Source of the DNA: Micromonospora violae
Lineage (GTDB): Bacteria > Actinomycetota > Actinomycetes > Mycobacteriales > Micromonosporaceae
Assembly: GCF_004217135.1 (NCBI RefSeq)
Contig: NZ_SHKK01000001.1
Coordinates: forward strand, 5,828,001-5,892,000
DNA length: 64,000 nucleotides
Direction of reading: 5' to 3'
Position numbers and translations under genes: made by a program. Positions 9,908-15,260 of this stretch are shown here, one piece after another. Position 1 is the stretch's first letter. The number at the start of each line of letters is the position of its first letter. The notes below the pieces were generated by a model, which saw only the letters and a list, made by a program, of their open reading frames with translations, ran no database searches and was not told the origin of the DNA.

Positions 9908-11062
9908 GTGACGCACGTGTCCGAGCGCAGCGGCGCAGGAAGCAGCCCGACCGGCGCAGGCGGCGACCGCCAGCCGTGGACGGGCGGCGCTGGCCGCCAG
10001 GCGCGCAAACGCTCGGTCTCGTACGCCGACGCCGGCGTCTCGATCGACGCGGGCGACCGCGCGGTGGAGTTGCTCAAGTCGAAGGTGCGCCAGACCCGCC
10101 GCCCCGAGGTGCTGGGTGACCTCGGTGGCTTCGCCGGCCTGTTCCGGCTGGACACGAAGAAGTACAAGAGCCCGATCCTGGCGTCCTCCACCGACGGGGT
10201 GGGCACCAAGCTGGTGATCGCCCAGCAGATGGACATTCACGACACGGTCGGTATCGACCTGGTCGCGATGGTCGTCGACGACCTGGTGGCCTGCGGCGCC
10301 GAGCCGCTGTTCCTGCTCGACTACATCGCCACCGGCGAGGTCGTTCCGGACAAGGTCGCCGAGATCGGCGCGGGCATCGCCGACGGCTGCCGCTACGCCG
10401 GCTGCGCGCTGCTGGGCGGGGAGACCGCCGAGCACCCCGGCGTCCTGCGCCCGGACGAGTACGACATCTCCGCGACCGGTGTGGGCGTGGTCGAGGAAGC
10501 CGACATCCTCAGCCCCGAGCGGGTCGAGGTGGGCGACGTGGTGATCGCCATGCGCTCCTCCGGCCTGCACTCCAACGGCTACTCGCTGGTCCGGCACGTG
10601 CTGCTCGGCGCGGCCCGGATGCGTCTGGACATCGTGATCGACGACTTCGGTCGGCAGCGGACCCTCGGTGAGGAGCTGCTCACCCCGACCAAGATCTACG
10701 CCAAGGACTGCCTCAAGCTGATCGCCGAGGCCGAGGTGCGGGCGCTGTCCCACATCACCGGCGGCGGCATCCCCGGCAACCTGGTGCGGGTGCTGCCCGA
10801 GCACGTCGACGCGGTGGTCAACCGGTCCACCTGGAAGCCCCAGCCGATTTTCGACCTGATCCAGTCGAAGGGTCGGATCGACGACCAGGACATGGAGTCG
10901 ACCTTCAACATGGGCGTCGGCATGTTCGCGATCGTGTCGGCCGAGGACGCTGACCGGGCGCTGGCCACCCTGACCGGCCGTGGCGTCGAGGCGTGGCAGG
11001 CCGGCGAGATCATCGAGGGCACCGGCAACGTGCAGATGGTCGGTCAGCACACCCGAGGATGA
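9908..11062 (+). CDS. purM: phosphoribosylformylglycinamidine cyclo-ligase PurM (AIR synthase)
   Basis: PurM closes the imidazole ring of FGAM to AIR with ATP. The 384-residue sequence shows the family features SYADAGVSIDAGDRAV, SSTDGVGTKL and GGGIPGNLVRVLP. About 35 extra N-terminal residues are polar and low complexity. The GTG start follows a GGGGAGAA ribosome site. It forms a purF-purM pair separate from purSQL. A short GATCAC/GTGATC hairpin directly after the stop may be the terminator. Confidence 0.95.
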   Translation: MTHVSERSGAGSSPTGAGGDRQPWTGGAGRQARKRSVSYADAGVSIDAGDRAVELLKSKVRQTRRPEVLGDLGGFAGLFRLDTKKYKSPILASSTDGVGTKLVIAQQMDIHDTVGIDLVAMVVDDLVACGAEPLFLLDYIATGEVVPDKVAEIGAGIADGCRYAGCALLGGETAEHPGVLRPDEYDISATGVGVVEEADILSPERVEVGDVVIAMRSSGLHSNGYSLVRHVLLGAARMRLDIVIDDFGRQRTLGEELLTPTKIYAKDCLKLIAEAEVRALSHITGGGIPGNLVRVLPEHVDAVVNRSTWKPQPIFDLIQSKGRIDDQDMESTFNMGVGMFAIVSAEDADRALATLTGRGVEAWQAGEIIEGTGNVQMVGQHTRG

Positions 11063-11120
11063 TCACTTTCCGGTGATCGTACGGGCACCTGATCAGGGCT
11101 TCACCCGAGTGGCCAATGCC

Positions 11121-11151
11121 GCCTAGCCTGAAGGGCACCCTCAGGCTAGGC
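11121..11151. promoter_or_regulatory. perfect inverted repeat abutting the RiPP maturase ribosome site
   Basis: GCCTAGCCTGA (11121-11131) and TCAGGCTAGGC (11141-11151) form an 11-bp perfect stem with a 9-nt loop. It ends directly at the GGAGGAGGG ribosome site of the radical SAM gene. It could terminate purM, act as an operator for the RiPP operon or be a translational control hairpin. Position alone favours control of the downstream gene. Confidence 0.5.
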
Positions 11152-11162
11152 GGAGGAGGGCG

Positions 11163-12296
11163 ATGGCTGCTCGGGGACAGTCGTTCAGCGGGATGCGCGG
11201 TCTGGCCGCCGTCCCGTCGTACGTCGTCATGCAGCCCACCACCCTCTGCAATCTCGACTGCGCGTACTGCTACCTGCCGTTTCGGGCCACCGACCGCCGG
11301 ATGCCGGTGGCGGTGGCCGAGGCGGTCGCGGTCGCGGTGAAGCCCTGGGCGGCGAACGGTCGCTTCTCCGTGGTGTGGCATGGCGGCGAACCCCTGGCCG
11401 CCGGTCGGGAGCACCTGGCCGATCTGATGGCGCCGTTCGGGCCGGAGGTCGAGCACCACGTGCAGACCAACGCCACCCTCATCGACGACGACTGGTGCGA
11501 CTTCTTCGTCCGGCACAGGATGCGGGTGAGCGTCAGCGTCGACGGGCCCCGGGCCCGCAACGGGGACCGGGTCAACCGGGCCGGTCAGCCGGCGTACGAC
11601 CGGATCGTGCACGGCATCGCGGCGCTGCGCCGGCGTGGTCTGCCCTTCTCCGCGTTGGCCGTGGTGTCCCGACCGGAGCCGGGGCTCGCCACCGAGCTGT
11701 ACGACTACTTCCTCGAGTTGGGCTGTGACGTCCTGGGCATCAACATCGAGGAGACCGAGGGGGTCAACACCCGCGACAACCGCCACGACCCGTCGGCGGT
11801 GTCCGCGTTCTGGGCGGAGTTGGTCGGGGCGTGGCGTCGGGAGCCCCGGATCCACCTCCGCGAGATCGAGTGGTCGTTGCGCTATGCCGCGGCGGTGCTC
11901 GACAACTCGGCGGACGGGGTGCTGCCCCGCCACCTGGACCCGATTCCGACGATCGGTCACGACGGCTCGGTGATCGTGCTCTCCCCGGAGCTGGCCGGCT
12001 TCACCGACCCCCATTACGGCGACTTCAGCAGCGGCAACGTGCTGACGACCCCGTTGGCGCAGATCCTCGGCACCGCGGCGGCGACGCCGTGGGTGGGGGA
12101 GTTCCTGGCCGGGGTGGAGGCGTGTCGGGCGTCCTGCCCGTACTTCGGCTTCTGCGGCGGTGGCCATGCCGCCAACCGCTACTTCGAGCTGGGGCGTTTC
12201 GACGGTACCGAGACCGAGCACTGCCGCAACAGCAAGATCCGCCTATTGGAGGGAGTGTTGGAGCATGCCCGAGACCACCAGTCACCGGCGGCCTGA
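11163..12296 (+). CDS. amcB: radical SAM/SPASM peptide maturase, AmcB-like triceptide (cyclophane) family
   Basis: This 377-residue enzyme has the radical SAM cluster motif C29-x3-C33-x2-C36 (CNLDCAYCY) near the N-terminus. A C-terminal SPASM-type Cys set (C320, C324, C330, C353; CPYFGFCGGG) should hold auxiliary Fe-S clusters. Such enzymes cut S-adenosylmethionine to a radical and crosslink side chains of a ribosomal peptide. GGEP in WHGGEPL and SVDGP are typical of this branch. The next gene overlaps its 3' end and encodes a small peptide rich in aromatic-X-Asn motifs, matching actinobacterial triceptide maturases that form three-residue cyclophanes. The ATG is set by GGAGGAGGG. No protease or transporter gene is adjacent. 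Confidence 0.8.
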   Translation: MAARGQSFSGMRGLAAVPSYVVMQPTTLCNLDCAYCYLPFRATDRRMPVAVAEAVAVAVKPWAANGRFSVVWHGGEPLAAGREHLADLMAPFGPEVEHHVQTNATLIDDDWCDFFVRHRMRVSVSVDGPRARNGDRVNRAGQPAYDRIVHGIAALRRRGLPFSALAVVSRPEPGLATELYDYFLELGCDVLGINIEETEGVNTRDNRHDPSAVSAFWAELVGAWRREPRIHLREIEWSLRYAAAVLDNSADGVLPRHLDPIPTIGHDGSVIVLSPELAGFTDPHYGDFSSGNVLTTPLAQILGTAAATPWVGEFLAGVEACRASCPYFGFCGGGHAANRYFELGRFDGTETEHCRNSKIRLLEGVLEHARDHQSPAA

Positions 12297-12492
12297 GCGC
12301 GAAGCGGACGACGGAGTCACCGAACGGGTGCGGGACGCGGGTCCCGCGCTCGTCGCCCTGCTCCAGGAGGCCGAGGACGCACGGCGGCTGCGTTCGGAGG
12401 TGTCGGGCGGGGACGGCTCCAGCGCGGTCTGCGCGTGGAACCACTTCGAGAACATCCCGACGTTCTACAACTGGAACAACCGCCCGCGCTGA
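12265..12492 (+). CDS. amcA: RiPP precursor peptide, AmcA-like, with aromatic-X-Asn core
   Basis: A 75-residue peptide begins inside the end of the maturase gene. Residues 1-50 are a charged helical leader (VTERVRDAGPALVALLQEAE). The C-terminal core, residues 56-75, carries W58-N-H, F61-E-N63, F67-Y-N69 and W70-N-N72, the three-residue spacing that cyclophane-forming radical SAM enzymes crosslink. Translation is likely coupled to the maturase; GGAG precedes the ATG. It ends with NNRPR and is followed at once by a strong terminator, so it closes the operon. Which rings form, and where the peptide is cut, cannot be read from sequence. Confidence 0.75.
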   Translation: MPETTSHRRPEREADDGVTERVRDAGPALVALLQEAEDARRLRSEVSGGDGSSAVCAWNHFENIPTFYNWNNRPR

Positions 12493-12503
12493 GGTAGCCG
12501 TGG

Positions 12504-12553
12504 TCAGGGGCCTGTCGAGCGGCCGGAGTGACTCCGGTCGGGCAGGCCCCTGA
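12504..12553 (+). terminator. terminator of the RiPP operon
   Basis: An 11-bp perfect outer stem (12504-12514 with 12543-12553) encloses a second inner hairpin (CCGGAGT/ACTCCGG), giving a branched structure starting 12 nt after the precursor stop. Confidence 0.8.
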
Positions 12554-12627
12554 TCGTCGGCGACTGCACCTGCACGGGACGTGCGTGAGCACGCGGAGGT
12601 TACCGCGTGCTCAGTTGCGTCGAGAGG

Positions 12628-14226: not shown

Positions 14227-14420
14227 GGTTTGCTCCTACGATGGTGTGCGTCCTTGTGGAACGCGGACCTGGTGGACCCCGGCGGGGATGCTGCCGGTGA
14301 GATCGAGCCTAGTATCGGCCGTCGTGCGGGTGCTCGACGCGCCGCCGCCGTCCCACGTTGCGGCGCGCGTACCCCCCGCCGCTGAGCGCGTACGGGCGTG
14401 GTTCGTGGGAGGATCGCGCG

Positions 14421-15260
14421 GTGCCGTCGCTCTTCGCTTCTTACCTGCGCGTGTACGAACCGTTGGCCGCCTTCGACCGAGACCGGCAGAGCTACTGGCG
14501 CCGTTACGTCTCGGAGGGTCGCGCGATCGCCCCGGTCGAGGGGCCCGGTCGGCAGCGGACGGCGGTGATCGAGGCGTTGGGCGCCGGCTGGACCCGGCTG
14601 CCCGACCTGCCGGAGGAGGCGTACGTCCTGGAGACGGACGACAGCCTGCTGGTCTGCCCGTGGAACCTGCGGATCCGCGTCGCCGAGGCGGCGCTCAGCG
14701 CCCGGGACGGGGTGCCCTCGGTGCTCGCCGACGCCTTCGTGCCGCCGGTGCTCGCCGGGCAGGCCAGGGCGGTGGTGGACGACTGGCGCAGTGGCGCCCG
14801 GGTGCTGGAGCACGGGGTGCCCCGGGTGCACGAGCAGATCGCCACCTGGGGCGTACCGCTGCGGTGGTTCGTGCTGTTCGACCCGGTCGAGCGGGACCTG
14901 GTCACCCAGCCGGGCCGGCGGTCGCTGCGCTACCGCACCGAGATCTCCAAGGCTCGACGCCGCTCGTCGCGGGCGTTGTCGGTGTTGCGCAAGTCGGTGG
15001 GCGAGGCGCCGATCACCGAGGCGGTGGAGGAGGCGGCGCGCTGGCTGGAGGAGTTCCATCCGCGGTCCGTGGTCGAGCTGGACTACGGCGGTCTGGTCGA
15101 CCTGCTCTCCGACGAGACCCTCGCTGCGGACGACTCGCCTGAGCTGGTTGCCGGTGGCCTCGCGGGGTTGTCCCGGGGCGAAGCCGAGGAGGCGTCCGCC
15201 GCGTACGACAAGTTGGTGGCCCGGTGGCGCGCGGTGCAGCTGCTGGAGCGGTGCAACTAG
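14421..15260 (+). CDS. conserved actinobacterial protein of unknown function
   Basis: A 279-residue soluble protein without signal peptide or transmembrane segments. I chose GTG 14421 because GGGAGG lies 8 nt upstream; an in-frame ATG at 14358 has no such site. It opens PSLFASYLRVYEPLAAFDRDRQ. There are no catalytic motifs I recognise. The C-terminal third is helical with many Ala/Glu/Leu residues. Similar stand-alone proteins of this size are common near bldC in actinomycetes, but I know no function. Confidence 0.75.
   Translation: MPSLFASYLRVYEPLAAFDRDRQSYWRRYVSEGRAIAPVEGPGRQRTAVIEALGAGWTRLPDLPEEAYVLETDDSLLVCPWNLRIRVAEAALSARDGVPSVLADAFVPPVLAGQARAVVDDWRSGARVLEHGVPRVHEQIATWGVPLRWFVLFDPVERDLVTQPGRRSLRYRTEISKARRRSSRALSVLRKSVGEAPITEAVEEAARWLEEFHPRSVVELDYGGLVDLLSDETLAADDSPELVAGGLAGLSRGEAEEASAAYDKLVARWRAVQLLERCN

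Follow-up and report, generated by a model that had tools for sequence, protein, structure and literature searches.

A putative AmcA/AmcB triceptide locus with a conserved core peptide in Micromonospora violae and its relatives

Results and Discussion

The amcBA gene pair and its neighbours

The window analysed here is a 64,000-nucleotide stretch of the Micromonospora violae genome, and the features under study are collected in Table 1. The amcB product matched the Pfam Radical_SAM domain and reached 514.1 bits against NCBIfam NF041718 (AmcB), thus passing the curated cut-off of 425. It carries the radical-SAM motif CNLDCAYC and C-terminal SPASM cysteines; among 52 aligned AmcB sequences, fragments included, C29, C33 and C36 of the CX3CX2C motif are kept in 50, and C321, C325, C331 and C354 of the SPASM region in 51 to 52. 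The second-best family was GrrM/OscB (TIGR04261) with 236.3 bits, yet this lies below its cut-off of 310. A search of solved structures by sequence matched AmcB to anaerobic sulfatase-maturating enzyme and ChlB; for AmcA the same kind of search returned nothing significant (best E 0.83).

The precursor itself passed NCBIfam NF041722 (phane_AmcA_3a) with 117.4 bits at a curated cut-off of 65. Its last 22 residues, AVCAWNHFENIPTFYNWNNRPR, contain the motifs W58-N-H, F61-E-N, F67-Y-N and W70-N-N. An earlier sequence-only reading of this DNA had described a SPASM radical SAM enzyme overlapping a 75-residue peptide, had taken the two for an actinobacterial triceptide-type maturase with its precursor and had proposed a comparison with known AmcA-type peptides. 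Both frames, their overlap and the motifs were found as described, and with both curated cut-offs passed the assignment to the AmcA/AmcB family holds.

Upstream of the pair lie purM (TIGR00878) and genes with purF-like and purL-like Pfam domains. Downstream, on the opposite strand, a DUF3073 gene is followed by a gene for an amino-acid dehydrogenase and then by a 300-aa ORF (window 14358-15260), which stands beside the dehydrogenase gene in 30 of 31 family loci and is without a Pfam or NCBIfam match. No protease or exporter was recognised among the neighbouring gene products scanned, a scan that covered part of the ORFs and left several long ones without a Pfam match; within this scope, the proposal of a minimal locus of maturase and precursor stands. 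An Rfam scan of the window returned three tRNAs only.

Table 1. Features of the amcBA locus, in window coordinates
Feature	Position	Strand	Description	Basis
Promoter-like element	11100..11129	+	conserved; TTCACC (-35-like) 11100-11105, 18 nt, TAGCCT (-10-like) 11124-11129	upstream regions of relatives
Front inverted repeat	11119..11153		13 bp, perfect, 9-nt loop; arms 11119-11131 and 11141-11153	fold and relatives
amcB	11163..12296	+	radical SAM/SPASM maturase, 377 aa; start ATG 11163, stop 12294-12296	NF041718 match; Pfam Radical_SAM
amcA	12265..12492	+	75-aa precursor, 32-nt overlap with amcB; start ATG 12265, stop 12490-12492	NF041722 match
AmcA leader helix region	12316..12399	+	about residues 18-45	family motif of leader profile; modelled helix in fusion relative
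AmcA C-terminal core	12424..12489	+	invariant AVCAWNHFENIPTFYNWNNRPR; predicted rings F61-N63, F67-N69, W70-N72	conservation; ring positions inferred
Rear stem	12493..12565		strong stem between convergent amcA and DUF3073, possible terminator	fold; coordinates approximate

Flanking elements

The pattern TTCACC-17 to 19 nt-TAGCCT was present in every one of 57 distinct sequences upstream of amcB in close relatives (56 from the genus and one, L075, from a neighbouring genus), and a similar pattern in 54 of the 80 named loci listed. The 7.14-Mb genome holds a single copy of the element, the one upstream of amcB, and the control gave none. Similar elements were seen in several other genera, many Actinoplanes-type loci keep the -10-like part only, and some loci show neither part. 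A scan for sigma-70 consensus promoters found none at this position; against this result, we take the element as the putative amcB promoter. Between purM and the element, TGATCA-like words are repeated at window 11062-11097 and were noticed by eye in many relatives of the genus; they are possibly an operator candidate.

The front hairpin of the sequence-only reading exists, with 13 perfect pairs rather than 11 and a single-strand fold of -30 kcal/mol (z -4.7). Its left arm overlaps the -10-like part, its right arm varies among relatives, and the perfect repeat was found in 10 of the 80 named loci listed and in 13 of the 57 distinct upstream sequences of close relatives. Given this variable right arm and the lack of a perfect repeat in most relatives, the hairpin was rejected as a conserved RNA element framing the locus, and it appears to be a lineage-limited repeat. 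Behind the genes, where a branched terminator had been proposed, a strong, long stem is present (-59 kcal/mol, z -5.9) and is a possible terminator, but it has no T-run and a scan for the terminator consensus found none.

Conservation of the core peptide

Among 57 distinct amcA genes of the genus, the last 22 codons gave a pN of 0 and a pS of 0.234 and thus no amino-acid change, with the leader region of the same genes drifting at a pN of 0.163 and a pS of 0.392 (pN/pS 0.41); an earlier run with one gene of the neighbouring genus (L075) added gave nearly the same values. The leader profile shows the family motif dpVadRVrdaragLtaLLaEAeaARr. The linker between leader and core is variable, and no conserved cleavage site was seen in it by inspection.

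Similarity to the AmcA of the window yielded 88 distinct amcA genes, 81 of which carry AVCAWNHFENIPTF[Y/F]NWNNRP and seven a second class of core, e.g., WRPFEDAFPTFYQFTNRPR. When loci were retrieved by AmcB instead, 59 of 66 held the first-class core VCAWNHFENIPTF[Y/F]NWNN. The rest consisted of two loci with RWTDVFTTQFTEFSNRPR, two copies of one fused locus, two loci of the second class and L133, whose core was missed by the search pattern and is of the second class by eye. This set comprises the best matches and six loci from genomes without AmcA_3a, and one genome is represented twice; it is less biased than the named loci, since those were retrieved partly by core words. At sequence level, the end of the peptide hardly changes across many related genera. 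Nonconservation of the small frame, which had been put forward as grounds for refuting the locus, was not found, as the frame is conserved in homologous loci.

A fixed chromosomal site and vertical descent

All 61 same-genus genomes compared, among them that of the window, hold an AmcB orthologue with 80-100% identity. With the fusion protein P0005 (see below) as query, each of the 160 listed genomes of the genus gave a best E value of 3.8e-143 or below, as counted by hand; 10 genomes without a match stand outside these. Of 200 family genomes sampled, 143 contain an AmcA_3a above the cut-off, each with a single match, and 57 do not; 14 control genomes gave none. Named carriers span at least 14 genus names, including Salinispora, Actinoplanes, Catenuloplanes, Phytohabitans, Asanoa and Catellatospora. 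For these, 80 of at least 112 relatives were kept, found partly by core words, so the core count in the named loci is biased.

The order amcB-amcA followed by a convergent DUF3073 gene was kept in all 31 family loci counted, to which a 32nd (L118), with its contig starting inside amcB, was not added. Directly upstream of amcB, purM was found in 26 of the 31. As to the others, in L099 and L112 the contig ends after a few hundred bases in which no purM was found, and the contig of L119 starts in amcB. In L096 and L097, purM and purF lie on the other strand and farther off, and amcBA stays with DUF3073. None of eight loci outside the family has the amcB-amcA-DUF3073 order. No AmcA_3a match was found in 51 family genomes, and the 20 of these that were listed were examined: six hold a full AmcB relative at 63-69% identity, G541 holds a 61% AmcB fragment at a contig end, and the remaining 13 all keep DUF3073, with purM inside the fetched stretch in two of them. 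In L251, purM and DUF3073 are about 360 nt apart with no amcB match.

AmcB distances track those of PurM (38 loci, rho 0.81) and of the dehydrogenase (36 loci, rho 0.72), and in both cases none of 999 permutations was as high. The locus behaves like a core gene, held at one chromosomal site.

Fusions of AmcB and AmcA

With the AmcB of L136 as query, six AmcB-AmcA fusions were found among the 120 listed of 1,698 proteins, and their tails end in [T/S][F/Y]Y[N/G]W[N/H]NR[P/S]R, mostly TFYNW(N/H)NRPR. A second search added P0125, giving seven fusions among 155 distinct AmcB relatives listed (P0004, P0005, P0008, P0009, P0010, P0012 and P0125), all with a shortened core. P0004, the protein of L136 on contig 429 of genome G516, is an in-frame fusion that lies between purM and DUF3073, at the same locus as that of the window, and a separate amcA was not seen there.

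All six fusions tested passed the AmcB cut-off (428-479 bits). With the core removed, a profile built from 103 AmcA leaders gave five of six tails a higher score than the best-scoring of 1,200 shuffles; the exception was P0008. BLASTP of AmcA against P0009 matched the core and one chance stretch and nothing else. In a quick tree of 121 sequences with a midpoint root, the six fusions and the unfused P0006 and P0007 formed one group (SH-aLRT 99), so that the fusion may be old with later splitting or may have arisen repeatedly; P0125 was part of neither the tree nor the two profile tests. The fusions belong to separate entries and share roughly 58-76% identity with each other, which makes a single assembly error an unlikely source; five of them, however, are on contigs shorter than 5 kb, and the genome of G516 is a draft. 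The fusion tail alone as query returned only its own protein, and among the matches listed for 354 family genomes a match ran through the tail in G516 only.

An AlphaFold model of P0005 (pLDDT 88, pTM 0.89) contains a leader helix at residues 374-394 with a pLDDT of about 80; from residue 398 on, the tail is mostly below 50 and the core tail is not resolved. The fold matches radical SAM/SPASM enzymes, the best solved relatives being anaerobic sulfatase-maturating enzyme and ChlB together with either the precursor or its leader, among them ChlB-ChlA complexes.

The fusions demonstrate that the gene for such a peptide need not yield a separately released product, so that processing by factors elsewhere, which the sequence-only reading had called for, may or may not be needed. 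We are evenly divided on the further reading that this clade makes AmcB and AmcA as one chain, in which the maturase would carry its own reduced-core substrate, the product would be a minimal two- or one-ring tail and release would be unneeded; the AmcA of the window may then also act without leader removal. Borosins, in which a methyltransferase is fused to its own core peptide, likewise combine enzyme and substrate core in one chain, but with a different enzyme and chemistry, and the locus of the window is itself unfused. If the attached tail is crosslinked, these proteins would be a maturase-precursor fusion among triceptides. If active, they would offer a one-chain enzyme-substrate pair for studying how a peptide is held and stapled, and would single out the final two motifs as the important part. 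Among the papers listed by literature searches none dealt with the locus or with AmcB-AmcA fusions, from which we do not claim their absence from print.

Ring pattern and role of the product

The core can be read in the consecutive triplets WNH-FEN-IPT-FYN-WNN. Three or more aromatic-X-Asn motifs were reached in 4.6% of 20,000 shuffles of the 22-residue core, which is weakly unusual by composition; with counts this near to chance, the case for rings rests on conservation and on the variants at the locus and not on motif counting. From similarity-found, AmcB-retrieved and fusion sequences, 19 distinct core variants were assembled. The last motif has Asn at its third residue in all 19 and is the only one kept throughout, whereas the third residue of the penultimate motif varies (N in eight, Q in seven, E in three, G in one), so the penultimate ring may not be universal.

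From these variants, rings are predicted at F61-N63, F67-N69 and W70-N72, and we favour these three, with W58-H60 doubtful. AmcB would bind the leader helix of AmcA, and most likely the radical SAM step would abstract the H-beta of a third residue and couple it to the aromatic ring, repeatedly along the tail, thereby linking each aromatic ring (residue i) to the C-beta of residue i+2 in consecutive C-terminal triplets. According to a review (PMC11002830), related enzymes connect the C-beta of Asn with C4 of Phe or with C6/C7 of Trp. At 2 Da per ring, the loss would be about 6 Da in total. The sequence-only reading had counted four rings, which would bring the loss to 8 Da; W58-N59-H60 is indeed invariant in all 81 distinct 3a genes and contiguous with the other triplets, and the same review (PMC11002830) describes varied third residues in related enzymes, Arg, Ser and Ala among them. 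However, in the nine second-class cores at the same locus this triplet is replaced throughout, by W-R-P (five), W-R-A (two) or P-R-P (two), while FEN persists as FED in eight and FSD in one and the last W/F-X-N is kept, and W-N-H is absent from all seven fusion cores. A fourth ring is therefore poorly supported and rather doubtful, and W58-N-H60 may or may not close. A product that is not simply multi-cyclophane, with Cys56 engaged in a thioether, a disulfide dimer or a metal site, is improbable. Every one of the 81 distinct 3a genes encodes this Cys, and four of the seven fusion tails (P0004, P0005, P0009 and P0012) have a Cys before the aromatic pair, although at other distances; the other three are without one, and so are other unfused core classes at the same locus, which keep their aromatic triplets.

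The three-ring product would be nearly the same in all carriers of class 3a read, made from a gene pair that stays at one chromosomal site behind its conserved promoter-like element. That the small frame is a chance ORF has a negligible probability: long spurious ORFs are abundant in this GC-rich window, yet here the core has a pN of 0 against a pS of 0.23, an NCBIfam equivalog matches, the position is conserved and fusions to AmcB exist. Invariance, vertical inheritance and the existence of fusions suggest that the producing organism probably uses the product itself, and we infer a producer-directed, housekeeping-like role, e.g., as an internal signal or ligand, rather than that of an arms-race antibiotic. 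Against such a role stand the 57 of 200 sampled genomes of the family without an AmcA_3a above the cut-off. The alternative of a secreted bioactive RiPP (an antibiotic or bacteriocin), with protease and exporter encoded elsewhere in the genome, is unlikely. Many RiPP systems do borrow distant proteases, and the variable linker before the core would suit unspecific trimming; a product nearly invariant across genera and vertical inheritance at a housekeeping locus are nevertheless unlike arms-race peptides, and no exporter was recognised among the scanned neighbours. Taken as a whole, a vertically inherited AmcA/AmcB triceptide system, likely with three rings and a housekeeping-like, producer-directed role, is quite probably the right explanation. 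The bioactivities of triceptides have not been elucidated, as stated in a 2025 paper (PMC12257519); a product this frozen, shared by many genera and fixed in its chromosomal place, makes a good case for testing them. For specialists, the interest lies in the housekeeping-like conservation and the fusion clade.

Comparison with known systems

The Amc name was reportedly defined by Phan and Morinaka in 2022. The family is already named, and the locus is a well-conserved member of it, with both curated cut-offs (NF041718 and NF041722) passed, the same two-gene architecture, a C-terminal multi-motif core and no difference in kind. AmcA/AmcB are in print, as judged by the title of that work (Phan and Morinaka 2022, 10.1021/acschembio.2c00621). 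What is added here to the named family is the fixed locus, the frozen core, the promoter-like element and the fused relatives.

Some Micromonospora genomes hold an accessory Amc system elsewhere, with cores of the FDNRPTWDN...FDSRPGWDNWNKK type in 10 of 11 fetched accessory loci (L232-L235 and L237-L242, where it occurs besides the fixed-locus system). It shares the aromatic-X-Asn motifs, and the one maturase tested, that of L232, reaches 566.8 bits and so clears the AmcB cut-off, but the accessory AmcB is 38-42% identical to that of the window, and the core and the genomic place are different. Similar FDN/WDN cores were found in other families (L032-L034 and L038). In the remaining accessory locus, L236 of genome G036, two AmcB-related maturases are adjacent, of which the first passes the GrrM/OscB cut-off (377.6 versus 310 bits), and a frame upstream contains RWNQSSWNNAFRDTGTWTNTWGQ.
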